From NCBI GenBank assembly GCA_020630975.1, contig JAHDID010000011.1:1-64000 (forward strand): a stretch of DNA of 64,000 nt. Reading direction: 5' to 3'. Made by a program: the position numbers and the translations under genes. The stretch comes from Verrucomicrobiota bacterium (lineage in GTDB: Bacteria; Verrucomicrobiota; Verrucomicrobiia; Verrucomicrobiales; DEV007). The notes under the pieces are model-generated. The model made no database searches, had not been told where the DNA came from, and worked only from the letters and a program-made list of their open reading frames with translations. Below are positions 44,178-60,095 of the stretch, piece after piece. Within the stretch, counting starts at the first letter, position 1; every line of letters starts with the position of its first letter.

Positions 44178-47100
44178 ATGCTACTCAAGACCCTTGAGAT
44201 TCATGGCTTTAAGTCATTTGCTGATCAGACAAAGCTCGAATTCCACGAAGGAGTGACCGGTATTGTCGGGCCAAACGGCTGTGGCAAATCCAACATCGTA
44301 GACGCCATGCGCTGGGTCCTCGGCGAGACTTCCGCCAAGGCACTGCGTGGTGGCGAGATGGCCGATGTCATTTTCAACGGCACTGACAAGCGCGCAGCTC
44401 TAGGCATGGCCGAGGTATGCCTGACGCTGACTGGCTGCGCCGAAGTGCTCCAGACAGACTACGACGAGGTCGCCATCGGCCGTCGTGTCTATCGCGATGG
44501 CAAGAGTGAGTACCTCATCAATCAAGCGCCCTGCCGTCTCAAAGATGTGCACGAGCTACTGATGGGCACCGGCATCGGCCGGACCAGCTACTCCATCATG
44601 GAGCAGGGCAAAATCGACATGCTGCTCAGCTCCAAGCCTGAGGACCGCCGCGCCGTCTTCGAGGAGGCCGCCGGTATCACCAAGTTTAAGCAGCAAAAGA
44701 AAGAAGCCCTGCGCAAGCTCGACTACACCGAGGCAAACCTAGTGCGCGTGCGCGACATCATCGCCGAAGAGGAGCGCCAGATCCGCTCACTCTCCCGCCA
44801 GGCATCAAAGGCCAAACGCTTTCAAAACCTGCAGGAAGAAGTCCACGTACTCGACATCCAGTTCAGCCACCGCAAGTGGCGCGAGATGCGAGCCAGTGCC
44901 TCGGAGATGGCTGTCTCCAGCCAAAACCTACGCGTCCAGCAAGACTCCCTCGAGAAAGAGATCGAGGAGAAGCAGGCCGCCATGGCCTCGGCCCGCTTCG
45001 AGCACCAAGAGCTAGAGAGCAAGCTCAGCGAGATCCAGCACAGCATCTCCACTCACGACAATGAGATCGAGACGGCTCGCAATCGCATCCAGTTTAATAA
45101 CGAACGCTCCCAGGAGCAGCGCCTACTCATCGAGAAAAACGAGGAAGACATCGATCTAACGGTGTCGAAACTCACCAACCAACGCGAGGAACTCGAGACC
45201 GCTACCGAGACCCTAGCCAATGTCGAGATCCGCATCGACGAGCAGGAAGAGATACTCGGCAAATACGAGGCCGAGATGGCCATCGCCCGCGAGAACCGCG
45301 AGAAGTACAACAGCGAGATCCGCGACTCCGAACTAGAGCGCACCACACTCAAATCGACCATCGCCACGCTATCTGCCCAGATCGCGGCGAATAGCCTACA
45401 GTTCGACACCGACAAAAATCGCCTACTCGAGCTCACCGACGAGATCGGCAGCCTGCGCCGCGAAGAGGAGCTACGCCGCAATGAGGCCGAAGAGCTGCGC
45501 CGCCATCTGGATGAGCACCGCGAGTCGATCGCTTTTCACGAGGAGGAGCTCGATAATATGGAGCTGCGCTATCGCCAGGCAAAAAGCTCCGCCATGGAGC
45601 GCCTCGAGGACCTCTCCAGCCTGCACAAGATCAATGCCGAAAAACTCTCCCGTCTCGATGTGCTCGAGCAGCTAGTGGCCGATGGCGAGGGATTTGCCCA
45701 GGGCACCCAGGCCGTGCTCAAAGGCGAGCTGACCCGAGACGACATCAACCAGCAGGAGATCCACAAACCACTGTACGCCTACATCGATACCGAGGACAAA
45801 TACGCCGCTGCTATCGAGGCAGCCCTAGGCAACCAGATGCAGACCGTGGTAGTCGATGGCGTCGACGTAGCGGAGAAAGTCATCGACGCCCTGAAAAATG
45901 ACAAACTCGGCACCGCCTCACTGATCGCGGCCGATCACCTCGGCAAGGCACCGGCGAAAAAGAAAAACGCTAGCCTACCCGATGCCGCCCTCTGCTGGGC
46001 CAGCTCCGTCATCACCCCCGCTGCAAAGGTAGAGCCTCTAGTACAACGCATACTCGGCGATGTCATCATCGCGCAGGACCTTCGCGCGGCTCTCGCTATC
46101 CGCAAATCAGCTAGCGACAAAGCCGTCGCCACGCTGAATGGCGAATTCATTTCCAAGGAGGGCGTCATCCATGGCGGCTCCTCCGCAGAAGAGTCCGGCT
46201 CTTTCCTCAAACGCCAGTCCGAGATCCGCGATCTATCACGCGTCACCGGCTCGCTCGACAGCGAGGTGAAAAAAATGCAGGAACGCCGCGATGCGCTGAA
46301 CTCCCGGGTCGGCGCACTCGAGGCTTCTCTAGAGAGCGCCCGTGCTCGCCTGCAGGATGAAAAAGTCGTCGCCTCCTCCATCGAGGGCAAGCTATCCGTC
46401 GTCGAGACCGATCTCAATGCTCTCACCCAAAAGATCGAAAGCATCCTCTGGGAACAAAAGCAGATCGAAGAGCGCGGCTCCGGCATCGAGCAGGGCATGG
46501 TATCGAATCGCGCCCAGCTCGACCACGACAACATCACCGTCTCGCAGCTAGACCAGACCATCGAGCGCGCTATCTCGCATCTCGAGGAGGCACGCACCCG
46601 CGAGGACGAGCTGAACAAACTCGTCACCGAGGCGCGCACCAGCCTAGCCGTGGAGCGCGGCTCCAAGGAGAACCTGCAAAACCAGAAAGCTCCCATGTCG
46701 AATCGACTACAGGAGTTTGAAGACCTCATCTCCCGCCGTCGCTCCGAGACAGAGGACTACAAAGAGCGCATCAAAAAAGGTGCCGAGGAAAACGAGACTC
46801 TTAAACAACAGATCGAGACCAAGACCACCGAGCGTACTCAGCTAGCCGAGAGCCAAGAGCAACTACTCGCCAAGCGCGGCGAGTACCTTGAGAAAATCGA
46901 GTCCGGCGAGGGAGAGCTCACCTCCAAGCGCAAACTGGTGCAGGAAGTCGCCGAAAAGCGCAACAAAGAGGAGCTACTCGTCTCTCAGTACGAGATCCAT
47001 GTCGAAAACCTCGAGACCAATACCCGCGAGCGCTACCAGACCGAGCTAGAGCACTACGAGCCAGATGCCCACCAGCTACTCGGCGTCATCGCTCACCAGA

Positions 47101-47891
47101 AAAAAGCCCGCGGTGTGGATACCGAGCCTACCGCCATCACCTCGCTCGATGAGAATGGCGCTCCCACCACCGATTTTCAAGACCCTAGTGAACCCGATTG
47201 GGACTTTGTAGAAGAGATCGTCGGCGAGATGCGCTCCAAGCTCGATGCCATGGGCCCAGTCAATCTCGACGCCATCGCCGAGTACGAAGAGCTCGAGGAG
47301 AAGTACAACTTCAACCTGCGCGAGCTAAACGATCTCGAGAATGCCAAAGAAGAGCTACTCAAACTTGTAGCCCGTATCAATCGCGATACCCGCCAGATGT
47401 TTTCCGAGACCTTCGAGCAAGTGCGCATCAACTTCCGCGACATGTTCAAAGAACTCTTCGGCGAAAAGGCTAAAGCCGACCTAACCCTAGTCGAGGATGA
47501 AGATCCCCTCGAGGCTGGTATCGACGTCATCGCCAAGCCTCCTGGCAAAAAGCTCCAGTCCATCACGCTCCTATCTGGTGGCGAGCGCTCGATGACTGCC
47601 GTGGCCCTACTTTTCGCCATCTTTATGGTCAAGCCTTCGCCCTTCTGCGTGCTCGACGAGCTCGACGCCCCACTGGACGAGGCCAATATCTCCCGTTTCA
47701 TCCGCGTACTAGACCGCTTCATCGGCTCCAGCCAGTTCGTCATCGTCACTCACAGCAAGCGCACCATGTCCCGCGCCGACGTGATGTATGGTGTATCCAT
47801 GGAGGAGTTTGGAGTATCGAAGACAGTAGGCGTGAAATTCTCCAAAGCCGACGAAGCGCTTGGTTTGAAGCAAGCACCGGTGGGAGGGTAG
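44178..47891 (+). CDS. smc: Chromosome segregation ATPase SMC
   Basis: 1237 residues, normal SMC length. Walker [10 protein letters not shown] near residue 32; a long coiled coil; a hinge at about 500-680 ([20 protein letters not shown] ... [16 protein letters not shown]); a second coiled coil; the C-terminal ATPase half with the signature [19 protein letters not shown] near 1130 and Walker [19 protein letters not shown] organises and condenses the chromosome with ScpA/ScpB, which are not in this window. Start ATG 44178 gives the canonical [17 protein letters not shown]. Confidence 0.97.
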
Positions 47892-48132
47892 TATATCCAA
47901 GATACTAGTCCAACTAGCAGATCTAGCCCTCCGGCCCTGCGACACCTCCCTAGTGGCATGAGTAATTCCACACGGTAGAAAGGCTGATCAAGCCTGCCCC
48001 TCCCTATTCACTCTTCTCAATAAACTCCAAAAAGGCTCGAGCTACCGAATCCCAACAAGACAAGCCAGAAAAGATTGAACGGCTGCAGGTTGGAGTAATC
48101 GCTAAAAACAGCTTCTAAAATTAAAAGCAAAA

Positions 48133-48154
48133 TTTACACTCATGTCACACATAA
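48133..48154 (+). promoter_or_regulatory. Tandem 11-bp direct repeat: probable response-regulator box 1
   Basis: TTTACACTCAT (48133-48143) and GTCACACATAA (48144-48154) are adjacent 11-bp half-sites with the shared core TNACAC/TCACAC. The preceding AAAA and the first ten bases are identical to box 2 at 52199-52220; over 26 bases only 3 differ. The box ends exactly 28 bases before ATG 48182. Tandem 11-bp repeats replacing the -35 are the hallmark of OmpR/PhoB-family sites, and the island encodes such a regulator. Confidence 0.75.
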
Positions 48155-48181
48155 AACGCCAACTATGGCATTCTAGTGCAA

Positions 48182-49990
48182 ATGAGAAATCTAATTAAAA
48201 TTTGCTTACTAATCGCCAGCCTATCTGCCACCGCTCTTCAGTCATCGGATCAACTAGAAGAAGAATCCAAGATCCAAGATCTATTCACAAACTTAACCGC
48301 AGCTGAAACCACAACACAGCGGCTACCGCTATTCTACCAATCCGACAAGTATAAACAGGAGATAGAAGCTTTCTACCAAAATACTCCTGCCCTTAGAGGG
48401 GACTTAAACCTGTCTCGTATTGCAAAAATCCCTCACTCCCAAGACCAGGTCACCCATTGGCTCTATCAGATCAAGCCAAACGGTACTCCCCCACTCCTTA
48501 TCCTAATAACGGAAGACGAAGGTAAACCGAAAATAAACTGGAACCTCTTCTCCGAATCGCGTTCCCAATCTTTCAAAAAGTTTATCGAATCAACCACCTC
48601 TGACGAAGGGACCTTCCATCTATTCATAGAGCCAATAGATGCGAACTACCGAACCAGTGAAAAACCACCAAAAGGTCACGACCGCTACTTAATCTACCCA
48701 CCTATCGGCTATCGAAAAAACCAGCAAGTGGCCTTTGTCAAAAAAGGTAGTGAGGCCAAAAAATCGATCTCAGCTTTCCGACAACCAAGCGGCCCCAAAC
48801 TCGTTTCCATCTCCCTGAAGGCAAAAAGAAACAATGATAGCAAAGAAACCCAATACTTCATCCATAGCGTCACCCCAAAATTCCAGGAAGACACCTCTAT
48901 CAAAGGCACCGAAGCCCGAGGAATCCAAACCACCACCAAGAAAAACTTTTATGGAATCACCCGTTATGAACAGCAAAAACAAAGAGAATTGACCAAGCAA
49001 AAAAAATTAACGTCCAAAGAACTCGACAAAATTTGCGAAACCTGGGACCTAGATTTCAAACCAACATCAAGCGTCACCCACCGAGACCTACTAATCAACG
49101 GGCTCCATTCAAAGTGGTCGCTAATACAAACACAACAAGTCGCAAATGAGCTAGAGTTATCGACTTACCAACGAATGCTTACCGACCTACAAATCGAGAT
49201 TAAAAACAGCACCCAGCACACTGGTACGCAAACAAACCAAAAAAACCATGACAGCATTGAAGATATTAGGGACCTCCTAGAAACCAAATTCCGCGATCGA
49301 GGCTACGAAAACAACTCGACATTACACAACCTAAAATGGATTCTCAACGACCTCGCACAGGCTCGGATGGAGGAGATAAGTCGATCCCTATTAGATCCCA
49401 ACAATAAAAATGAGGCTACAAAAGCTATAGACACAAATAGATTCCATGAACTAAACCGTATCTATAGGAGATGCAATGAAGACGACCTAAGCGATAAAGC
49501 AACTCCCTATAAATTCGCAAAATCATTCCCAACAGACAAAGATGACTACTTGCCAGTCTATCTCAAGATACCTCTACTTCAACCGAACTACTGGAGCTTT
49601 GATCAAACCGCCTTAAAGGAAGCAGAAATCACCCTCGAAATAGAAGACAGCCTAGAACCAGAGCCGAGAAAAATCGTAATCCAAAGCAATGGCAAAATCA
49701 GCCCAGGCTGGGAGTACACAGAAGAGAACGACACCACCGCATTCGCAATAAAATCAACAAATAAACTTATCCGAACCAATCAAACCAAAATCAGTCTCAA
49801 ACTAACCACTAAAATCGACATTCCAGGAACTTGGGAATCAGACTCTGCGATCCTTCCAAAAGGTGAGTACATCTCGCAAGGAACTCCGAATATTTACCGC
49901 TTTGGCCAAAATGAAAAAAGCACAAACTACGCCTATTTCGGCCGAAGCAGATGGGATACACTATGGCTACTAAAGCCAATCCAAAAATAG
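48182..49990 (+). CDS. Unknown exported protein A of the two-component island
   Basis: 602 residues from ATG 48182 (GTG 48176 is also in frame), with signal peptide LIKICLLIASLSATALQ. The protein is rich in Lys, Asn, Thr and Glu. The middle contains long helical stretches. The last 145 residues (from DYLPVYLKIPLLQPNYWSF) form a domain shared with the protein at 53419-54276. The common pattern is YLxLP-QP-W, then an ITLxI strand, GKxxxGW, then DIPGTWESDSAILPKGEYIS aligned with IHGKWQSTEAILPIGEYTS, then W-D-x-LW-x-x-PI. No known family recognised. Box 1 precedes it, and the kinase gene starts 20 bases after its stop, so they are co-transcribed. Confidence 0.65.
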   Translation: MRNLIKICLLIASLSATALQSSDQLEEESKIQDLFTNLTAAETTTQRLPLFYQSDKYKQEIEAFYQNTPALRGDLNLSRIAKIPHSQDQVTHWLYQIKPNGTPPLLILITEDEGKPKINWNLFSESRSQSFKKFIESTTSDEGTFHLFIEPIDANYRTSEKPPKGHDRYLIYPPIGYRKNQQVAFVKKGSEAKKSISAFRQPSGPKLVSISLKAKRNNDSKETQYFIHSVTPKFQEDTSIKGTEARGIQTTTKKNFYGITRYEQQKQRELTKQKKLTSKELDKICETWDLDFKPTSSVTHRDLLINGLHSKWSLIQTQQVANELELSTYQRMLTDLQIEIKNSTQHTGTQTNQKNHDSIEDIRDLLETKFRDRGYENNSTLHNLKWILNDLAQARMEEISRSLLDPNNKNEATKAIDTNRFHELNRIYRRCNEDDLSDKATPYKFAKSFPTDKDDYLPVYLKIPLLQPNYWSFDQTALKEAEITLEIEDSLEPEPRKIVIQSNGKISPGWEYTEENDTTAFAIKSTNKLIRTNQTKISLKLTTKIDIPGTWESDSAILPKGEYISQGTPNIYRFGQNEKSTNYAYFGRSRWDTLWLLKPIQK

Positions 49991-50009
49991 TCAAAAAAAT
50001 TACGTTTTA

Positions 50010-51464
50010 ATGCTACAGAGAGAAGTCGATTACCTAAAAATGGCCAATTTCCTATTGGCCACCGGTATATTGTGTCTCGCCGCCGGATGGATTCTATCAA
50101 AAGAGAAAACAATAATCCACCCCGCATTATCAGAACACGACTTTGCAGAGATCCTTTCCGAATGGGAACATTTAGGAAATCGCATCTCAACCGACCTAGA
50201 GCAATTCGCCAACTCATGGATAACAGGCAAAGGAACCCTACACCATTGCCTTCACGCAACCGAACTGATAAATCATGGTTGGGGAACCATCAACGGCCAA
50301 ACGTTCGAGTTCGGAGATACACCGAACAGATCCCCCTCCCTCGATAACGAACGAAGCAAAATAAAAGCAAAACTAATTGAAACGCCTCCTAATAGACTAG
50401 TTTGGTTCCGAGAACCCTTAACGATTACGATAAAATCCAGCTCAAATACTTTCGTTGTGTTTAGAATTTCAGATTACGCTCTGCATGAGACATTGGCCCT
50501 ACCTCTATTCGACCACCCTATTATCGAAAGCTATCAAACCATAGTCTCGCCCAAGAAAGAACACCTCAAACCGCCTCAGCATAGCTTCAAAAACCCCTCA
50601 AATCCACTACTAGAACTAAGAATCTGGACGAAACAGACCGAACAAATAAATTATAATAAGAAAATCTGGCTAACAGCCTCTTTACTATCTCTATTATTCA
50701 TAACACCGGCTATACTAATACTGTTCCGAAAAAGTCGGAATATAAAAAGGGCCAGAACCCAGATCTCGATTGCTAACACCTTATCGCACGAGTTACGCAC
50801 GCCCCTGACGAATATTGAGCTCTTAATTGACCTTCTAAATGAAGATCTAGTTCAACCGAATCAGATCGCCCAAAAGCGTCTAAGCATTATATCCCGAGAA
50901 GTCAATCAGATCGATTTCATTCTCGAAAACACTCTCCTCCTCGCATCGCTTAGCAAACGCCAGAGCAGAGCATCACTAGGCAATCAGAAAGTGAATCTTG
51001 TGAATACCATCAATAAAAGTATCGAATCATTCGATGAAGCACTAAAGGAAACAGGGATTAAAATAAATTTCACTACCACAGACAGAGAGTACCACGTAAA
51101 AATTCTTGAACCAATGCTATTGCAAGTGTTTGCCAATCTTATATCCAACGCGAACAAATATGCCGGAAAAGGTCAACATCTAGAGATCTCAATCATAGAT
51201 AAACCAAAGAAGGCGAACCTCCAGATTGAATTTAAAGATAGAGGACCAGGCATCCCAGAAACTAAATTCAAAGACATTTTCACGCCCTTTAAAACGCTAA
51301 GACAAGGCGTCTCCGAATATCGCCAAGGAACAGGACTAGGCCTTACGATCTCAAAAATGATTCTACGTGAATTTGGCGGCGACCTTTTTGTCAGACAAAG
51401 ATCCGATGGACAATCCGGGGCCGTGTTTGTAGTCGAACTTAGAAAACACCAGTCTCACTTATGA
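50010..51464 (+). CDS. Membrane sensor histidine kinase
   Basis: 484 residues. Two membrane helices (ANFLLATGILCLAAGWIL and WLTASLLSLLFITPAILIL near 215-235) enclose a periplasmic sensor of about 185 residues without a family I know. HisKA follows with the phosphate-accepting His260 in LSHELRTPLTN. The ATP-binding domain has NLISNANKYAG (N box), FKDRGPGIPE (G1) and GTGLGLTISK (G2). The stop overlaps the regulator gene by 4 bases. It probably senses the state of the envelope or a ligand of the neighbouring exported proteins, by position only. Confidence 0.92.
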   Translation: MLQREVDYLKMANFLLATGILCLAAGWILSKEKTIIHPALSEHDFAEILSEWEHLGNRISTDLEQFANSWITGKGTLHHCLHATELINHGWGTINGQTFEFGDTPNRSPSLDNERSKIKAKLIETPPNRLVWFREPLTITIKSSSNTFVVFRISDYALHETLALPLFDHPIIESYQTIVSPKKEHLKPPQHSFKNPSNPLLELRIWTKQTEQINYNKKIWLTASLLSLLFITPAILILFRKSRNIKRARTQISIANTLSHELRTPLTNIELLIDLLNEDLVQPNQIAQKRLSIISREVNQIDFILENTLLLASLSKRQSRASLGNQKVNLVNTINKSIESFDEALKETGIKINFTTTDREYHVKILEPMLLQVFANLISNANKYAGKGQHLEISIIDKPKKANLQIEFKDRGPGIPETKFKDIFTPFKTLRQGVSEYRQGTGLGLTISKMILREFGGDLFVRQRSDGQSGAVFVVELRKHQSHL

Positions 51465-52171
51465 ATATCTTAATTGTCGAAGATGATCCTCTAACTTCGG
51501 AAATCCTGAAAGAGTGCCTAGAATCCGAAGGATTCGCACCCTTCTGCGTCTCATCGGGCACAGCTGCTATCGATGCTTGGAAAACAGGCCTATACAGCCT
51601 TATCTGCCTAGACATCATGATTCCAGAACTAGATGGCTACGAAGTTTGCCGGAAGATACGAAAAAAAGACAGTTCGACTCCCATTCTGTTTCTATCTGCT
51701 AAAAACGACGAGATTGACGTAGTAGCAGGCCTCCAACTCGGTGCCGACGATTTTCTTCGAAAACCTTTTGGAAAGAAAGAGCTAATTGCAAGGATCCGAT
51801 CGGCCACCAGAAGAGTAAACACCGAATCTGACAACAACAATCACGATTCATTCGTAATGTTCGACCAATTACTCGTTACACCCAAGCAATTATCTATAAG
51901 CAACAGCGCCAACCCTGACTTGATAGAGCAGGTATCACCAAGAGAGATTGCGATCTTACAGCTCTTCCGCCTCGAAGGAACCCGGGTAGTCAGCAGAGAT
52001 GAATTCTTCGATTTCTGTTGGGGTTTAGATTACTACCCAGAGTCCCGAACTCTCGACCAATTCATTTCCCGCATCCGGAGAAAGCTCAACACTTTAAACA
52101 TAACTCGATTTGAAATTACAAGCGTAAGGGGGATTGGCTACAGAATAACTACCCATGAGCTATCCCCCTAA
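51461..52171 (+). CDS. OmpR/PhoB-family response regulator
   Basis: 236 residues. The receiver domain has the acidic pair EDD, phosphate-accepting Asp51 (CLDIMIPE) and Lys101 (RKPFG). The C-terminal winged helix (QVSPREIAILQLFRLEG ... SRTLDQFISRIRRKLN, ITSVRGIGYRI) is of the OmpR type. It is cognate to the kinase by overlap. Its class binds tandem direct repeats of about 11 bp, and two such boxes occur in this island (48133-48154, 52199-52220), one before each exported-protein gene set. Confidence 0.93.
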   Translation: MNILIVEDDPLTSEILKECLESEGFAPFCVSSGTAAIDAWKTGLYSLICLDIMIPELDGYEVCRKIRKKDSSTPILFLSAKNDEIDVVAGLQLGADDFLRKPFGKKELIARIRSATRRVNTESDNNNHDSFVMFDQLLVTPKQLSISNSANPDLIEQVSPREIAILQLFRLEGTRVVSRDEFFDFCWGLDYYPESRTLDQFISRIRRKLNTLNITRFEITSVRGIGYRITTHELSP

Positions 52172-52198
52172 CAGTCGAATTCAAAAAATAAATGAAAA

Positions 52199-52220
52199 TT
52201 TACACTCAATTCACACTTAA
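52199..52220 (+). promoter_or_regulatory. Tandem 11-bp direct repeat: probable response-regulator box 2
   Basis: TTTACACTCAA (52199-52209) and TTCACACTTAA (52210-52220), the clearest form of the repeat. A -10-like TAAGAT lies at 52235-52240, 14 bases past the box, then 7 bases to ATG 52248. The start of transcription should fall at or near the ATG, so the mRNA is probably leaderless. The box-to-ATG distance (28 bases) equals that of box 1. Confidence 0.8.
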
Positions 52221-52247
52221 TCTCAAGAGCACAGTAAGATAAAACAT

Positions 52248-53357
52248 ATGAAGAACATTTTCTTATCCATTATTGCACTCATCACATATAGCGGCAACGC
52301 TTTTTCCGAAGATTCAAACATCAACACACCGACAGCCCACATATTCCAAGAATTTGAGAAAGCTTATCAAACCTACCTCGAAAAAAGAATATCCGATCTA
52401 AGCGAAAAAAATTCTCCAACCTTCGATAGCTCCATCTACACAGATATTCTTTTACCCAAAATCGAAAAAATTAATCCTAATAAAGGCAGTGCCGACCTGT
52501 CGCTAACCGAGATAAAAAGCCAAACTTTATCCAACTGTAAAGCCCAAAACCTTAGCGACTATCAAACCAATAAAAACATCGATAATGCAATCACAAAATA
52601 CTGGGAGTTGTACGCTATAGTTTGCAATATCAACATTCAACAACAACTCGTAAAAACATTAGAATCTATTAACCTAGGGACCGTCATCCCAATCAATTCT
52701 CTAGAGTTCAACCAAGTCGAAATTAAAATCAATCAGCAAACCAATCGACTAAAACGACTAACCATAAACAGAGAGATAGTCGAAGAATCAATCCACAAGC
52801 TTACAGGCTTACCCGCACAGACCATCCAACCAACAACTCCATTAAGCTCTAAAATAGACCCTGTCAGAACGATTCAATCTCACAAAGAGTACTTCAAAAA
52901 AACAACCTATTACACTGACGGTCTTGCCCGGTTTAGAAAAAAATTCAAGACATCGGACTCTTCACATTCAAAAGCAATCAATCAAATCATCAAAATACTC
53001 AACGCTTCGGACAGTAAAGAAATAACAGAATCAGACATTAAGCATATCTCACCAAAAGAAATCCAAGATTTGTTTTTACACATTAATTCAATCACAGATA
53101 GCAACCTCCGAACCCACAACAACAGCTGCTATTTAGCCAACGCTAGACTCGCAATGTTCGAGAGTGATTTCAAGGAATGGAAGGAAACAAATGATTCACT
53201 TATGACCTTCAAAGACAGCTTGCAAAGTAATATAATCTCACTGTCCCCAGAATATTTGCTCTTTATGATTGAATGCCAAATGCAACGACAGACCGCCATC
53301 ACTAGCTTATGCAAACTAATCACCGATATCGATAAAATGAACAATAGCATATACTAA
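52248..53357 (+). CDS. Unknown exported helical protein of the island, faintly TolC-like
   Basis: 369 residues with a signal peptide (MKNIFLSIIALITYSGNAFS). The rest is almost all helical and rich in Asn, Ile, Lys, Ser and Thr. One stretch (NLGTVIPINSLEFNQVEIKINQQTNRLKRL, leading to EESIHKLTGLP) resembles the helical-hairpin repeats of TolC-type outer-membrane efflux proteins. The overall length is shorter than TolC and the match is weak. Box 2 stands 28 bases upstream, so it is a likely target of the regulator. It is AT-rich like its neighbours. Confidence 0.55.
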   Translation: MKNIFLSIIALITYSGNAFSEDSNINTPTAHIFQEFEKAYQTYLEKRISDLSEKNSPTFDSSIYTDILLPKIEKINPNKGSADLSLTEIKSQTLSNCKAQNLSDYQTNKNIDNAITKYWELYAIVCNINIQQQLVKTLESINLGTVIPINSLEFNQVEIKINQQTNRLKRLTINREIVEESIHKLTGLPAQTIQPTTPLSSKIDPVRTIQSHKEYFKKTTYYTDGLARFRKKFKTSDSSHSKAINQIIKILNASDSKEITESDIKHISPKEIQDLFLHINSITDSNLRTHNNSCYLANARLAMFESDFKEWKETNDSLMTFKDSLQSNIISLSPEYLLFMIECQMQRQTAITSLCKLITDIDKMNNSIY

Positions 53358-53418
53358 TCGAAATTAGATCGCCTTAAGTAAAACCTAGCCACCCCCCAAT
53401 GCTAATTCCACAAGAAAG

Positions 53419-54276
53419 ATGGGCATTCAAGTACGAATCCACCTAAAACCAGGACACCTCAACCATTTACATGGCAAATTATTATCCCTAGCAATATTCT
53501 GTATAACTATTCAAATTTCGATTGGGCAAACTACAACCAGTGGTCCAATACCAACCTTGGATGACCAATTAGAAAGAACGACCACCGAGTCTCCGAAAGA
53601 AAGATCAAAAATAGGCTACAAGCCAAACCAAAGACTCGAAAAACACCACAAAAATCTTCAATCCAATATTCTTTCCGGAGTCATCGAAACGATGAATCAC
53701 ATTAGTATTCAAACACACTCAAATCATAATAGAACAGTACAAATTAACCAGAACAAAAACACAAACGAAAAGAACGAAGATCATTACTATATCTACCTAA
53801 ACCTCCCAGTAAGACAACCACATTTACATTGGAACCTAAGATCCAGCGACATCCTAAGAAGTAACATAACTCTAACCATTCAAACAAAGGAACATCAAGA
53901 CGATACAACTATCAAAATAATAGATAAAGGCAAAGTCAAGACAGGGTGGAAATTCAAACTTAGACACCAGAACGATACATACTATAATCTACTAGTATCA
54001 ACACACCAATACTCAATTAGCTCTGATCAATTATTTATTATTAGCTTGAAATCCGATATACCAATTCATGGTAAATGGCAAAGCACTGAAGCAATCCTCC
54101 CAATTGGCGAATACACCTCCATAGGATCTCCCATTTTATTCAAATTGCAAGAGATCGGAACCAGCAACAGAAAACAAGTTGCCTTTATACCTACACCCAA
54201 CTGGGATTATTTATGGATAATGGACCCCATCACAAGGAAATCAGGGTCAGGTGGAACACCGCAAGGCATTTACTAA
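53419..54276 (+). CDS. Unknown exported protein B of the island, sharing a C-terminal domain with protein A
   Basis: 285 residues. A basic N-terminus precedes a signal-like helix (LLSLAIFCITIQISIGQ). A polar linker (about 50-115) is rich in Asn, Thr and Lys. The C-terminal domain (from YYIYLNLPVRQPHLHW) aligns with the end of the protein at 48182-49990: ITLTIQTK with ITLEIED, GKVKTGW with GKISPGW, HGKWQSTEAILPIGEYTS with PGTWESDSAILPKGEYIS, NWDYLWIMDPI with RWDTLWLLKPI. This is a clear paralogous domain. The gene lies 61 bases after the helical protein gene and has no box of its own, so it is probably co-transcribed from box 2. Confidence 0.6.
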   Translation: MGIQVRIHLKPGHLNHLHGKLLSLAIFCITIQISIGQTTTSGPIPTLDDQLERTTTESPKERSKIGYKPNQRLEKHHKNLQSNILSGVIETMNHISIQTHSNHNRTVQINQNKNTNEKNEDHYYIYLNLPVRQPHLHWNLRSSDILRSNITLTIQTKEHQDDTTIKIIDKGKVKTGWKFKLRHQNDTYYNLLVSTHQYSISSDQLFIISLKSDIPIHGKWQSTEAILPIGEYTSIGSPILFKLQEIGTSNRKQVAFIPTPNWDYLWIMDPITRKSGSGGTPQGIY

Positions 54277-54434
54277 TAATCTGAAGAGAGAAACAAACTC
54301 AATGATTTTCTGTCACGAGGCAGTTATCAACTAGGTAAAACAAGGATAACAACAAGCATAAATCTCCCAAGTAATTATGCAGTACAACTTAGACACTAAT
54401 ATCGTGATTCCTATTTAAGAATTACTACATAATT

Positions 54435-55838
54435 ATGAAATTGACCTTCACCTTATCCCAGTTAAAAGCAATCGCGATCTTGATTATTGTATTCAACCTA
54501 GGTCATCGAGCAAGCTCCGCTGCCGCTCCAGGCGATTCTCTAACTGAGTTTGACACCACAAAGGCCGATCCGCACTTCCCGGCCATGGCGTATTGGGCGC
54601 GAGCCGGTGTTCAGGGTGGCATACCGACAACAGAAACAAAAATTGATCAATACGAAAATATTCGATTAACCCCCGATTCCGGAGACAACAGTCAATCAAT
54701 TAACCAAGCCATAGATCACATGCATAGCAAGGGAGGTGGCATAGTGATTTTACAACCGGGGACTTACAAATTCAGCAGTCCAATCAATATGAAATCGGAC
54801 GTGATTCTACAAGGCACCGACAAAAAAGCAGTCAAGTTAGTAAGCAGTATTCGGTTCAACAGCACTCCCTCTGGCAAAAAGAGCACGAATATCTGTTTTC
54901 ATGATACCAACAACGCAGCGCTAGAGAATATTACACTTGAGTTCCATGTAAGCCTGAATGGGAAAACCTTGTACCCTCTCGACCATGACTGGGACGATGA
55001 TTTTACGGATGAGTATGAACGGCGTTCTCAGAACTGGAAAAATGGGAGGATTTATTTCGATCGGAGACGGTATAAATTTTTCGAAGCCAACGACCTCTAT
55101 GTAGACCACGTCCTCATAGACGGAACGTCAACTAATTGCTGGCTTGACAACTGCGCATTTATAAACGCCGGGTCTAACGGCCTGAAGATCATGCCTAACA
55201 CTTCACATATCACCATTCGAAACTGCGAGATCAAGGGATCATTCAATAAAGGGGAAGAGGGAAACGGTTATGGTATTGATTGCCGAGGAGACTATGTGTT
55301 AATGGTAGGAAATTATATGGAAAGAGTCCGGCACTGGGCAGTACAGCTTGGCGCGGAGTATTGCGTGATTTACAATTGCGTCAGCAAGGTTGACATTAAC
55401 TTTCATCAAAAAGACAACGGAAATAATTTGGTGGAAAATTCCGTAATTGAAATTTCTAAAGCTCATTTGTGGAAATGCTTTCAAGCTGGTGCGGATTTTC
55501 ACGCAGATCCAGGAGAGAATAATTTTTTCTATAATAATAAATGCACCGAATCTACCGGATTATCAACTTTACTTAAAAGTAATGTTTATACTTTTACCAA
55601 TAAGATGATTACAGAGGTTCAATATAAACCGAAAGGTAGATGCTTATACGCAATTAGACCTAAACAATTTGAGATTACCGAATGGGAGAACAGTGATGGA
55701 GTTATAATAAAGGCGAAATTAATTCGCCGAAACGGACCAATCGTACACCTTCAACTTCAAAACGGTCATATAACTCAGTATCCTATTGATAAACTGTCAC
55801 AAGCTAGTCAAAAGGCTTTGGTTGAATTACTGAAATAA
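54435..55838 (+). CDS. Exported right-handed beta-helix protein with C-terminal SHD1-like domain
   Basis: 467 residues with a signal peptide (ending near HRASSAAAP). The main part is a pectate-lyase-like beta-helix: AIDHMHSKGGGIVILQPGTYKF, then repeated strand turns such as TSHITIRNCEIKGSF and ENSVIEISKAHLW. The last 55 residues (WENSDGVIIKAKLIRRNGP ... YPIDKLSQASQKAL) match the SHD1-like domain common in planctomycete and verrucomicrobial exported proteins. Likely binds or cleaves polysaccharide outside the cell; no catalytic residues assigned. Separated from the previous gene by 158 AT-rich bases that show no clear box, so it may be an independent unit. Confidence 0.75.
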   Translation: MKLTFTLSQLKAIAILIIVFNLGHRASSAAAPGDSLTEFDTTKADPHFPAMAYWARAGVQGGIPTTETKIDQYENIRLTPDSGDNSQSINQAIDHMHSKGGGIVILQPGTYKFSSPINMKSDVILQGTDKKAVKLVSSIRFNSTPSGKKSTNICFHDTNNAALENITLEFHVSLNGKTLYPLDHDWDDDFTDEYERRSQNWKNGRIYFDRRRYKFFEANDLYVDHVLIDGTSTNCWLDNCAFINAGSNGLKIMPNTSHITIRNCEIKGSFNKGEEGNGYGIDCRGDYVLMVGNYMERVRHWAVQLGAEYCVIYNCVSKVDINFHQKDNGNNLVENSVIEISKAHLWKCFQAGADFHADPGENNFFYNNKCTESTGLSTLLKSNVYTFTNKMITEVQYKPKGRCLYAIRPKQFEITEWENSDGVIIKAKLIRRNGPIVHLQLQNGHITQYPIDKLSQASQKALVELLK

Positions 55839-55862
55839 TATGATTAGTCTACCTATGTATAG

Positions 55863-55884
55863 CTAGTGATCCTGCGACCACTAG
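55863..55884. terminator. Hairpin between convergent genes
   Basis: CTAGTG, 10-base loop, CACTAG, located 25 bases after the beta-helix gene and 31 bases before the end of the convergent gene. No U-run follows directly, so termination is only suggested by position. Confidence 0.3.
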
Positions 55885-55914
55885 GATTTCAGACGTCTAG
55901 TTTAGCTTTAATTT

Positions 55915-56772
55915 TCATAGCCGAATCCTCGAAAGAAACGACTGCCCACCTTCCTTCTCTCGCTGCGCCGGAATCATCAGGTGCAGGGCCTGAGGATAGA
56001 GACGGAGTGATGCGGCATCGAGATCGAGGAGCTGCGATAGGTAACTAGGAGTTTGATCGGCTACTGATATGGTATGGGATTTGGCCAGCTCCTCGGTGAG
56101 CTGACGCTGCACCTGCTTGGCACCGAAATGCTTACCGGCAGACTCTAAGACTTTGTCCACGACCTTACTGAGGCCCGCGATATCGATCTGCCCGACGTCG
56201 ACCTGACTGGAGATAGGGGTAAACTTGATATCCGGCACCGCCGCAGCGCGACTGCTACCGCTGCGACGTGCAGGAACCAACGATAAGCGATAGGTCGCTC
56301 GCACACTGACAGGGCAGGTCACATCGCCAGTATGAGTCTGCCAGTCGCCCGTGGCCGTGCGCTTTTCAGACGACTTACGCTGGCCGAGGAAACCCAGCTT
56401 CACCTTGCGCTGCTCATAGCGGATCTTACCCCGGATCTGTGCACTAGACTGCAGGGTGACTCGATCGGGCGCCTGAAAACTCAAATGTATGGAACGATCC
56501 GGCAGAGTCGCAACCGTATCCTCGATACGCAGATCCTTCCAGAGAGGGACTTTGGCGAGATTCGTCTTTCCCGGTATCGAGACCCGGTCTGGTATCTCAT
56601 GGCGCAGGATGCCCTGGACCAATTCGCGAGACACCTTAAACTCGACTGCCGTATCGCCTGTATCCTGCCCGCGCCCCTGCCGCATCGATAGTACTGCGAA
56701 CAGTGAAAAAACGAGCCATAAAGTAAATGTGTATCGAGCAGTAACTTGAGTATCGGAGATAGCGGTATTCAT
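55915..56772 (-). CDS. Hypothetical exported protein
   Basis: 285 residues with an N-terminal signal helix (FTLWLVFSLFAVLSM). The mature part has beta-rich segments (LPDRSIHLSFQAPDRVTLQSSAQI, ITCPVSVRATYRLSLVPA-type) and ends in two helices (LSKVVDKVLESAGKHF, SLRLYPQALHLMIPAQR). I do not recognise a family. GC content returns to that of the main chromosome. It is divergent from the pilin-like gene with a 224-base gap. Confidence 0.6.
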   Translation of the reverse strand: MNTAISDTQVTARYTFTLWLVFSLFAVLSMRQGRGQDTGDTAVEFKVSRELVQGILRHEIPDRVSIPGKTNLAKVPLWKDLRIEDTVATLPDRSIHLSFQAPDRVTLQSSAQIRGKIRYEQRKVKLGFLGQRKSSEKRTATGDWQTHTGDVTCPVSVRATYRLSLVPARRSGSSRAAAVPDIKFTPISSQVDVGQIDIAGLSKVVDKVLESAGKHFGAKQVQRQLTEELAKSHTISVADQTPSYLSQLLDLDAASLRLYPQALHLMIPAQREKEGGQSFLSRIRL

Positions 56773-56954
56773 ACGTGGCGGGCAAAGTGGTGCGATTATC
56801 TGGCACTGACAGATATAAAGACTCCTTAAATTTGTAGTCTTCGATTTGATGTGTCAGTCGATCCGCTCAGCCTTGGCAGACTGTGCTGGGATGCGCATTT
56901 GGACGAACCATCCTGCAGATTAAACATACCTTTTCCCCATCCTCGACAATCTTC

Positions 56955-56996
56955 TTGATTATGATAATTATTGAAATTATATTCAATCCCCCCCCC
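56955..56996 (+). promoter_or_regulatory. Promoter with C9 tract directly before the pilin-like start
   Basis: TTGATT (56955-56960), 17 bases, TATATT (56978-56983) form a candidate promoter whose start would fall near 56990, inside a run of nine C (56988-56996). ATG 56997 follows without a gap. A homopolymer of this length is prone to slippage, and it covers the transcription start and the start-codon boundary. Confidence 0.45.
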
Positions 56997-58472
56997 ATGT
57001 CTTGTTTTATTATGCACAAGCGCAACGGATTCAGCTTAGTCGAGATGCTGATCACCATCGCCGTCATCGGAGTGATCGCCGCCATCGCCGTACCTTCCAT
57101 CTCAAGTGTACGTAAAAATGCACAAGCGTCGAAGGACAAACGAAACGCACAAGAACTCGCCTCGATTTTCGAGGCTGCCAGTGCCGCAGGAGTGAATTTC
57201 AGCGGCGGCGACGAGCATGCAGTCGTGGCCAGTATCGCAGCGGGAGTGATAGCTGATGAAGGTCTGATGAAAGGCTCCTACTACGGCCTGAAAGGCTTAA
57301 CGGAAGCCGAGCGCTATCGTGCCGTGAAGTATCTGGACTTTAAAGACGGCATCCTGATCTACACAGGCGACGCCTCTGACAAGTCGCTAGACCTAGCCGT
57401 GCGTCTAGAAGGCTCGTCCGGCGAGACGATCTACGAAAAGGTCGATGTGTTTAAGGGTTCCGACAAATTCAGAATGTCCGCCACATTCAATGCCGACCGA
57501 TTCGACTCCGATACGAAGCTGACCTCTGCGACTGTCTACGCCCCAGGGGACGACCTCGGTATGTTCGTCACTGCGACCAAAGACTCAAAAATCAAAGCGA
57601 CTAAAAAATCCGATGGTGCCGGGGGCTACAAGATCGAACTGACCGGCGAGGGCTCTGTGCAGGACTATAAAGACGCCATCAAAAATGTGCAGCTATCTAT
57701 GGATAACGACCAGTGGGGAGGTCCGATGAGCTTCGGCGTGACTCTCAAAGATACAGATGGCAATACCCACAGTGAATCCTTTTCCATCGATACTAGCTAT
57801 GCCGACGCTGCCCCTTCGGGTGTGAAAGCGGAAGAGAGCGATGTAGTGGACTTTAGCGGAGCGGTGACCGGCTTTTCCAACTCGGGAGAAGAATCTATCA
57901 ACATGCGGAAGCTAGAGGAAGTGAACGTCGGTGGCCCATGGCCGGAGAAAACTCAATTCGTGCAATTCACCACTGGTGGCGATCTATCTGGCGAACAGAT
58001 GGTCTATGAGCAGGGTGGCTACGTGCGTGGCTATTCGCTTTCGATCTTACCCGACCCTGAGACCGGTGTGCCCACTATGTATGGCACTCTCTATAACCAC
58101 GTGGAATGGCCTAAAGGAACAACTGATCGCACAGCTGTGGTGAACCTCGGCGAAGTGGAGGCTAACAAAGACTACTCAGTCGTGATGGCTCATGATGCGA
58201 AAAACACTGATCCATCGAAGAATAGCTTTTCCGTCTATGTGAATGGTAAGAAAATCGGCTCTGTAAATAATGTGATGCAGCAATACGATCACCCTGGCAG
58301 TATCGGCATCGGCAGCATGCAGGGCGACACGGTAGATCCCCGCACTGGTAAGTATGTGCGCGGAAATGGGAGAGAATTCGCTGGTAAAGTACATGACGTG
58401 CAGATCCTAAACGAGCTCTGGAGTGATGAGGCTGCCATCTCGGTGACGCAAGACCAACCGGCAGGAGGGTAG
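56997..58472 (+). CDS. Type IV pilin/pseudopilin-like protein fused to a LamG-type domain
   Basis: 491 residues from ATG 56997, or 486 from ATG 57012. The prepilin signal KRNGFSLVEMLITIAVIGVI has a leader ending in Gly, Phe at +1 and Glu at +5, so it should be cut and N-methylated by prepilin peptidase. After about 150 residues comes a cadherin-like/beta region (SATVYAPGDDLGMFVTATKD). The last 200 residues are LamG/concanavalin-like (VVDFSGAVTGF ... NSFSVYVNGKKIGSV ... HDVQILNELW). Ordinary pilins are 130-180 residues. It probably displays a sugar-binding or adhesive domain on a pilus or pseudopilus. Only this pilin gene is nearby; no assembly genes. Confidence 0.8.
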   Translation: MSCFIMHKRNGFSLVEMLITIAVIGVIAAIAVPSISSVRKNAQASKDKRNAQELASIFEAASAAGVNFSGGDEHAVVASIAAGVIADEGLMKGSYYGLKGLTEAERYRAVKYLDFKDGILIYTGDASDKSLDLAVRLEGSSGETIYEKVDVFKGSDKFRMSATFNADRFDSDTKLTSATVYAPGDDLGMFVTATKDSKIKATKKSDGAGGYKIELTGEGSVQDYKDAIKNVQLSMDNDQWGGPMSFGVTLKDTDGNTHSESFSIDTSYADAAPSGVKAEESDVVDFSGAVTGFSNSGEESINMRKLEEVNVGGPWPEKTQFVQFTTGGDLSGEQMVYEQGGYVRGYSLSILPDPETGVPTMYGTLYNHVEWPKGTTDRTAVVNLGEVEANKDYSVVMAHDAKNTDPSKNSFSVYVNGKKIGSVNNVMQQYDHPGSIGIGSMQGDTVDPRTGKYVRGNGREFAGKVHDVQILNELWSDEAAISVTQDQPAGG

Positions 58473-58609
58473 TTTCCCTACCGATTTTCGGTAAATCATC
58501 ACAAAATAAACTAAACCGAAATTTCAACTTGTTTTAGCGAGTTTTTTCACACAGAGTGTCTCTTGTCATTGACCCTAAACCCAGTCGATGCGATTCGTTT
58601 TATGTGTAC

Positions 58610-59518
58610 ATGATAGGACGACCACTCTTTTCCCTACTATTACTCGCTACTTTCCTGACTCTGCCTAGCCTCTCCCACTCTGCCGAGACTGAACCCGTAG
58701 AGAAGCCCGGTATCAAGACCCTGCAGCTAGTCAGCGATCGCGATGCTGTCGTGCCTGGTCAGAAGCTAGACGTAGGCCTCTACATCCAGCACCAGCCAGA
58801 GTACCACACCTACTGGAAGGCACCCGGCATCGTCGGCGTGCCGACATCTATCAACTGGGAGCTGCCCGAGGGCATCACCGCATCAGGCATCTCTTGGCCG
58901 ATGCCGCAGCAGACCAAGATGGCGCAGTACACTGCCTACGGCTACAAGCGCGACGTCTGCCTACTATCCAGCTTGACCATACCTGCCGACATCGAGGGCG
59001 ATACCGTGCTACTGAAAGCCCGAGTATCCTTCATGTGCTGCTCGAAGAGCTGCCACCCAGGCTGGCACGACTTCGTGCTCGAGCTACCGATCGATCGCAC
59101 TAGCAAGACCGCACCTGCTGACCGTAAATGGGAAAAGATCTTTGCTGCGGCGCGCAGAGAGACCGAAGAGACTGCGCCAGAGACTTGGCAGATCGTAGCT
59201 ACCGAGACCGAGGGCGCACTCTCCCTAGAGCTGACCTCAGATAGCCGTAGCTTCGCCCTGCACGATGGCATCCAATTTTTCTGCGAGCACAACAAAGTGC
59301 ACTCTGACAAACCTCAGGTAGTCGAGCGCTCTGGCGACAAGAAGCAACTCGTCTTCACCCTAGAGCAATCCGGCTTTGGCCCGGAGGATCTCGAGCGGTA
59401 CTCGGCCATCATCTATCACCCTAGTGGCTGGCCTGGCCTTTCATCCAAGTGGCTGCGTATCGATACGCCACTCCAGACCGCCCCTGAGATCGCTTATGAG
59501 CAACAGCAGCAGCAGTAG
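58610..59518 (+). CDS. DsbD N-terminal-domain-like exported protein
   Basis: 302 residues from ATG 58610 (signal peptide FSLLLLATFLTLPSLSHSA). In-frame GTG 58556 lies upstream but is not needed. The domain at about 30-165 matches the periplasmic N-terminal domain of DsbD (HQPEYHTYWKAPGIVGVPTSINWELPEG ... FMCCSKSCHPG). The paired cysteines CCSKSC could carry a redox disulfide. The membrane and thioredoxin parts of DsbD are missing, so it may work with a separate partner or act as an independent thiol-disulfide or copper-handling protein. The SET gene overlaps its end by 23 bases. Confidence 0.75.
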   Translation: MIGRPLFSLLLLATFLTLPSLSHSAETEPVEKPGIKTLQLVSDRDAVVPGQKLDVGLYIQHQPEYHTYWKAPGIVGVPTSINWELPEGITASGISWPMPQQTKMAQYTAYGYKRDVCLLSSLTIPADIEGDTVLLKARVSFMCCSKSCHPGWHDFVLELPIDRTSKTAPADRKWEKIFAAARRETEETAPETWQIVATETEGALSLELTSDSRSFALHDGIQFFCEHNKVHSDKPQVVERSGDKKQLVFTLEQSGFGPEDLERYSAIIYHPSGWPGLSSKWLRIDTPLQTAPEIAYEQQQQQ

Positions 59519-60095
59519 TAGCCAAGCCGAAGGCAAACAAGAAGAATCTAGCGCACTACTACCGGGCGAGGCCTGCCACTCCGAGTGGTGTGAGGTGCGT
59601 GGATCGATCATCCATGGCCGAGGTGTTTTCGCCAAGAGGGACATCCCTGCGCAGACGCCTATCATCGAATATGTCGGCGAGCGCATCGACAAGGACGAGT
59701 CCGATCGCCGAGGCTGGGCACAGATGGACAAGCACAACGAAACTGGCGAAGCCGCCGTGTACATCTTTACCCTAAATGATGACTTCGACATCGATGGCAA
59801 TGTGCCGGAAAATGCCGCCCGCCTGATCAATCACGGCTGCGATGTAAACTGCGAAGCCTACATCGAGGAAGACGAGATCTGGATCTACGCCATCCGCGAT
59901 ATCGAGGAGGGCGAGGAGCTGCTTTTCAACTACGGATTCGACCTGGAAAACTGGGAAGACCACCCCTGTGTGTGCGGTGCTGACTGCTGCCCCGGCTACA
60001 TCGCCGGTATGGACTACTGGGAAGAGCTGGAAAAGAAAAAGAAAGCTCGTGATAATGCAGCCAAAGCCACGACAGAGCCTGTGGTGCTGGGATGA
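59496..60095 (+). CDS. SET-domain protein (lysine methyltransferase-like)
   Basis: 199 residues from ATG 59496. After a Ser/Gln-rich start comes a SET domain: RGSIIHGRGVFAKRDIPAQ, then EYVGERI, ENAARLINHGCDVNCEAY (the NH..C motif that binds SAM and lysine) and IYAIRDIEEGEELLFNYGFD. A post-SET-like Cys cluster (CVCGADCCPGY) may bind zinc. Eukaryotic relatives methylate histones; bacterial ones methylate varied proteins. The H1-like protein at 30138-30755 is a natural candidate substrate but this is inference. No signal peptide: cytoplasmic. The start overlaps the preceding gene, suggesting co-transcription. Confidence 0.88.
   Translation: MSNSSSSSSQAEGKQEESSALLPGEACHSEWCEVRGSIIHGRGVFAKRDIPAQTPIIEYVGERIDKDESDRRGWAQMDKHNETGEAAVYIFTLNDDFDIDGNVPENAARLINHGCDVNCEAYIEEDEIWIYAIRDIEEGEELLFNYGFDLENWEDHPCVCGADCCPGYIAGMDYWEELEKKKKARDNAAKATTEPVVLG

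Follow-up and report, generated by a model that had tools for sequence, protein, structure and literature searches.

A probable horizontally acquired two-component envelope module with paired candidate regulator boxes beside smc in a Verrucomicrobiota bacterium

Gene content and composition of the locus

The stretch of DNA analysed here, referred to as the window, comprises 64,000 nt of a Verrucomicrobiota bacterium (GCA_020630975.1, contig JAHDID010000011.1, positions 1-64,000, forward strand). Between smc and a DsbD-like gene it carries a compact set of five genes (48182-54276) encoding an exported protein (A), a histidine kinase (HK), a response regulator (RR), an exported protein predicted to be helical (hel) and a further exported protein (B). 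The N-termini of A, hel and B are hydrophobic segments of the export type. The features of the locus are collected in Table 1. The reading frames bear out the gene positions proposed for this set in an earlier reading of the letters without database searches (the sequence-only reading), whose base counts were also exact (16 G+C of 60 at 53701-53760 and 33 of 60 at 45001-45060).

Table 1. Features of the locus, in positions of the window
Feature	Position	Strand	Description
Inserted block	47892-58473	no strand	Between smc and DsbD-like gene; defined by gene order in relatives
Box 1	48133-48154	+	TTTACACTCATGTCACACATAA; candidate regulator site 5' of A-HK-RR, 49 nt to ATG of A
Protein A	48182-49990	+	Exported; unnamed N-terminal domain and A/B C-terminal domain; ATG at 48182
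HK	50010-51464	+	Membrane histidine kinase; no detectable relatives of its periplasmic sensor (about 190 aa)
RR	51461-52171	+	OmpR/PhoB-type response regulator; 4-nt overlap with HK
Box 2	52199-52220	+	TTTACACTCAATTCACACTTAA; candidate regulator site 5' of hel-B, 49 nt to ATG of hel
hel	52248-53357	+	Exported, predicted helical orphan, 369 aa
Protein B	53419-54276	+	Exported; C-terminal domain in common with A
Beta-helix gene	54435-55838	+	Right-handed beta-helix protein; probable AT-rich passenger without box
DsbD-like gene	58556-59518		Downstream neighbour of inserted block
SET-domain gene	59376-60095		Beside DsbD-like gene

When base composition and codon use were computed, the five genes were found to be GC-poor: 48133-54276 has a G+C content of 41.0%, compared to 55.3% upstream and 55.6% downstream, and the GC3 values of the set (0.37-0.48) lie below those of flanking genes (0.54-0.73). 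Their synonymous codon-use distance to the flanking genes is also raised (0.25-0.34) but overlaps that of some short flanking genes (up to 0.29), and GC and GC3 are therefore the stronger signals. The beta-helix gene has a similarly low G+C content of 41.7%; its product scores just over the cut-off of Pect-lyase_RHGA_epim (28.1 bits against 27). An AT-rich island had been proposed at 48133-55838; its low GC is confirmed, but the block is longer, running from about 47892 to 58473, and its last 2.6 kb are not AT-rich. Inside the block, at 56883-58472, a gene of normal GC encodes a 529-aa fusion of a LamG-like domain with a prepilin-type N-terminal methylation motif.

Gene order at the 3' end of smc

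Genus relatives carry smc in 33 of 34 genomes. The DNA 3' of smc was read in 16 genomes of the genus, of which 15 are informative, the remaining locus (L064) ending too early. In 13 of these 15 (L052-L057, L060-L063 and L065-L067) smc is followed, within about 200 nt, by the DsbD-like and SET-domain genes, whereas in the window 10.6 kb separates smc from this pair. In genome G005, 3.3 kb of other genes lie between smc and the pair; in G167 there is other material 3' of smc, with no DsbD-like gene within the 15 kb read. Given this adjacency in the relatives and the gap seen here, the block was most likely inserted, and the simplest account is that this lineage received the insertion at a site which also took other cargo. 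Alternatively, the gap could arise from a misjoin of the contig, which would need two joins, each beside syntenic genes. The deviant composition and the interrupted gene order at smc together support the horizontal acquisition that had been proposed from the letters alone.

Two further features of this site were noted by sequence reading. The SET-domain product is lysine methyltransferase-like, and in most of the genus its gene has stayed next to smc and a DsbD-like gene. The material 3' of smc in G167 (L058, 591-7599) is an AT-rich block of 38-47% GC that encodes metallophosphoesterase-like and trypsin-like proteins and an SbcC/SMC-like ATPase, near a Fic-like protein; it resembles a defence-type island and lies at that same position beside smc.

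At both edges of the block lies a 17-nt imperfect direct repeat (15/17), the copies of which span the stop of smc (47876-47892) and the stop of the prepilin/LamG gene (58457-58473), as if integration had duplicated the 3' end of smc. The repeat was noticed after the fact; a match of 14/17 was reached by 0 of 2939 random stretches. Of the features of an integrative element, the interruption of a conserved gene order was found and an integrase or transposase of its own was not: neither was matched by any of the eight proteins encoded between 48.2 and 58.5 kb, and no tRNA gene was found in the block. These three absences distinguish the block from genomic islands at hot spots, which it resembles in its foreign composition, broken gene order, edge repeat and the other cargo found in relatives.

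The exported proteins

Searches of Pfam, NCBIfam and PHROGs gave no credible family for A, hel or B, and no characterised homologue of A or B was found. A and B are homologous to each other over about 154 C-terminal residues (30% identity, E 1e-20), and this common domain probably gives them one and the same binding partner or ligand in the envelope. The domain is very rare. A profile of it matched, besides the window, G437 (E 1.7e-68) and, weakly, G222 (E 7.8e-4) among 388 genomes of the phylum, which gives three genomes of 388 counting this one, one of them weak; among 75 genomes of the family it matched G016 besides the window. The profile E-values of G016 and G437 are inflated, since both supplied sequences to the profile; with B alone as the query, the E-values were 6.4e-6 and 5.3e-9. 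Scans of genome contigs with A and with the A/B C-terminal domain, and a viral scan with B, returned no relatives; neither did plasmids searched with A or phages searched with B yield a match.

The N-terminal half of A is quite another matter. Single-sequence searches with A matched in 24 of 37 genomes, nearly all of the matches being to this domain, and in an iterated profile, the scores of which are partly circular because A seeded it, residues 35-235 or so align to the domain family over its full length. The domain has no Pfam name. In relatives it forms the C-terminus of proteins of 870-1050 aa that combine a zinc ribbon with a long proline-rich region and a single membrane span; this genome also has it at the C-terminus of a lipoprotein-like protein and of a Ser/Thr kinase. 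The alignment of A with the zinc-ribbon proteins of the genus includes a (K)IDWExF-like core, but the domain is terminal there, whereas in A it stands first in an exported protein, ahead of the A/B domain. Members of the zinc-ribbon family were seen at L027 7747-10692, L026 6049-8658 and L028 5032-8010, among others, with the C-terminal core KVDWEIYSEF. A is thus not wholly an orphan, as its N-terminal domain, though it has no name, occurs widely in the genus.

In the predicted structure of A (mean pLDDT 66, 23 alignment rows) the N-terminal domain consists of an alpha+beta part and a barrel-like part, and the model has no Foldseek match with E <= 0.001. Residues 22-131 superpose on the N-terminal domains of PBP2a and PBP5 (NTF2-like/MecA_N) with Z 7.2-8.0 and rmsd 2.9-3.3 over 95-104 residues, a similarity that falls within the range of common arrangements. 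Residues 131-237 resemble OB folds (RPA and MCM chains; Z 6.0-7.8), but too weakly to name the part, and these modelled likenesses to PBP2a/PBP5 and OB folds are only suggestive. An Ig-like beta sandwich was considered for the C-terminal domain and likewise set aside as too weak to name (Z 4.5-4.8 only). Searches of PDB sequences with profiles of both domains of A gave nothing credible.

Neither 36 relatives nor a phylum-wide sample of 289 genomes yielded a homologue of hel. A single-sequence model of it was unusable (mean pLDDT 34.5), and a search of PDB sequences gave nothing credible. When scored with a profile built from 30 TolC-like proteins of the order, hel ranks above all 30 of its own shuffles, but its score is not significant against a background of other frames (E 1.3), and the resemblance therefore stays a lead. 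Like TolC-like (OEP) proteins, hel is exported and predicted to be helical, and one short stretch of it resembles the helix before their L..L.G.P turn, at which the alignment ends; it differs from them in having no significant match, in being shorter, and in having no recognisable second repeat or beta barrel. It may be that the block encodes a regulated efflux or secretion module, in which hel would be a reduced TolC-like outer membrane component with A and B as periplasmic partners, switched by HK and RR. The shuffle result and the L..L.G.P alignment would fit such a role. However, hel has no Pfam OEP match and no usable model, its profile score does not exceed the background frames, and the block has neither an inner-membrane pump nor an adaptor, so that we regard an efflux function as unlikely. 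None of A, hel and B can be recognised as a pump, an enzyme or a surface anchor.

The two-component pair and the paired boxes

HK and RR have the domains and motifs of an OmpR/PhoB-type two-component pair. In HK, hydrophobic segments at residues 11-29 and 221-239 flank the presumed periplasmic part, and complete HisKA and HATPase_c domains follow with H, N and G boxes present (SHELRTPL, NLISNANK, DRGPGI and GTGLGL). RR is likewise complete, its receiver, with the phospho-acceptor Asp and the conserved Lys, being followed by a Trans_reg_C winged helix. HATPase_c matches number about 50 in this genome. In 190 genomes of the order, neither the first 250 residues of HK nor, at 1e-40, the whole protein had a match, and a search of plasmids with HK gave none either. 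PADLOC returned weak matches to HK only, which were rejected. In the loci read in other genomes, no kinase or regulator gene was seen beside A-like or B-like genes.

The sequence-only reading had called the system possibly undescribed and its exported proteins unlike any family known to it; this holds for hel, for the kinase sensor and for the A/B C-terminal domain, but not for the N-terminal half of A, which belongs to a recurring, if unnamed, family of the relatives. A characterised homologue of A and B, or a kinase-regulator pair common without them in close relatives, would have spoken against that reading; A and B have no such homologue, and the sensor and hel were found in no other genome searched.

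The strongest support for self-regulation is a pair of boxes that formed no part of the earlier argument. A repeat search returned a 38-nt pair at 48117 and 52183 matching at 30/38 positions, compared to 25/38 for the best match among 400 sequences of 8 kb that were simulated at the same composition. Its 22-nt core, TTTACACTCAnnTCACACnTAA, has exactly two matches with up to 3 mismatches in the 64-kb window, with 0 expected in shuffles. The boxes start at 48133, the first position of the island as proposed, and at 52199, each 49 nt from the ATG that follows (48182 for A and 52248 for hel), and so give the units A-HK-RR and hel-B one box each. Tandem half-sites are what OmpR/PhoB-subfamily regulators bind to, and boxes arranged in this way would usually be assigned to the neighbouring regulator. 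Within each box the half-sites TTTACAC and (G/T)TCACAC are offset by 11 bp, the best lag tested in both, an arrangement that agrees with the tandem direct half-sites about 10-11 bp apart of OmpR/PhoB-type sites. In PmrA, a member of this subfamily, the half-sites occupy base positions 5-10 and 16-21, head to tail and 11 bp apart (PMC3973317), and the binding consensus of RstA is TACATNTNGTTACA (PMC4117788).

From this arrangement we infer that RR binds both boxes, and the two matching sites suggest that it controls its own operon and a second one. The self-regulation that had been proposed is supported to this extent by two near-identical boxes in the same placement before both units. No promoter elements could be placed at a fixed distance from both boxes, which could also serve another regulator. 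An origin of the boxes by gene duplication was rejected, since A and B are the homologous pair, but it is A and hel that have a box in front of them. The boxes might instead be repeats with a promoter or structural role in the donor genome, for instance a promoter motif common there, the appearance of self-regulation being then an effect of composition. Two copies only are known, within the 64-kb window, as such a reading would allow; against this, no third match with up to 3 mismatches occurs in 64 kb, none precedes the equally AT-rich beta-helix gene, and the internal 11-bp direct repeat fits OmpR/PhoB-type sites. A donor repeat thus seems improbable to us. The beta-helix gene, for its part, has a GC skew of +0.02, compared to -0.11 to -0.31 in the five genes; with this and with no box within 3 mismatches 5' of it, it is probably cargo outside the regulon.

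It could further be argued that the locus came together by chance, as a foreign fragment on which a two-component pair travels with unrelated exported genes and has no function in common with them. Consistent with this, the beta-helix gene, a gene for a 285-aa protein on the minus strand and the prepilin/LamG gene look like mixed cargo of other composition, and no genome searched has the five-gene set other than this one. The two boxes, however, tie both units to one regulator, and A and B have a rare domain in common, so that a chance gathering is also quite improbable.

We consider it likely that the block was acquired horizontally and is a two-component envelope module that regulates itself. 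In the scheme that we infer, which covers the signal, RR-box binding, the direction of regulation and complex formation, HK would read a signal through its periplasmic domain and phosphorylate RR, which would bind the tandem boxes and adjust the A-HK-RR and hel-B operons together. The outputs would be the three exported proteins, A and B with the same C-terminal domain and hel as a helical partner. A stronger version, in which A, hel and B would assemble into an undescribed envelope complex based on the new A/B domain, switched by a dedicated pair with a new sensor and moving between lineages of the phylum as one cassette, is possible but on balance doubtful. The module as proposed amounts to a self-contained, testable regulon: a sensor, a regulator and two boxes, with three exported proteins of no named family as the outputs. 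Its regulation is predicted from sequence alone and could be checked by a single binding assay. The locus also draws attention to two unnamed domains, the widespread one that opens A and the very rare one that A has in common with B.

Among known systems the module is most readily compared to those of the RstAB, PmrAB and CpxAR type. As in these, a membrane kinase with one periplasmic domain and a winged-helix regulator are encoded by overlapping genes, and boxes of tandem half-sites lie 5' of the system's own operon and of a second operon. It differs from them in a sensor without a relative in 190 genomes of the order, in targets that are unnamed exported proteins, and in having no CpxP-like or other known partner; no CpxP-type match was found among A, hel and B, and the CpxAR equivalogs score far below their cut-offs (CpxA 77.8 bits against 486, CpxR 121.7 against 341). 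An autoregulated two-component module on an island is a well-known kind of system; it is the sensor and the outputs that are new.
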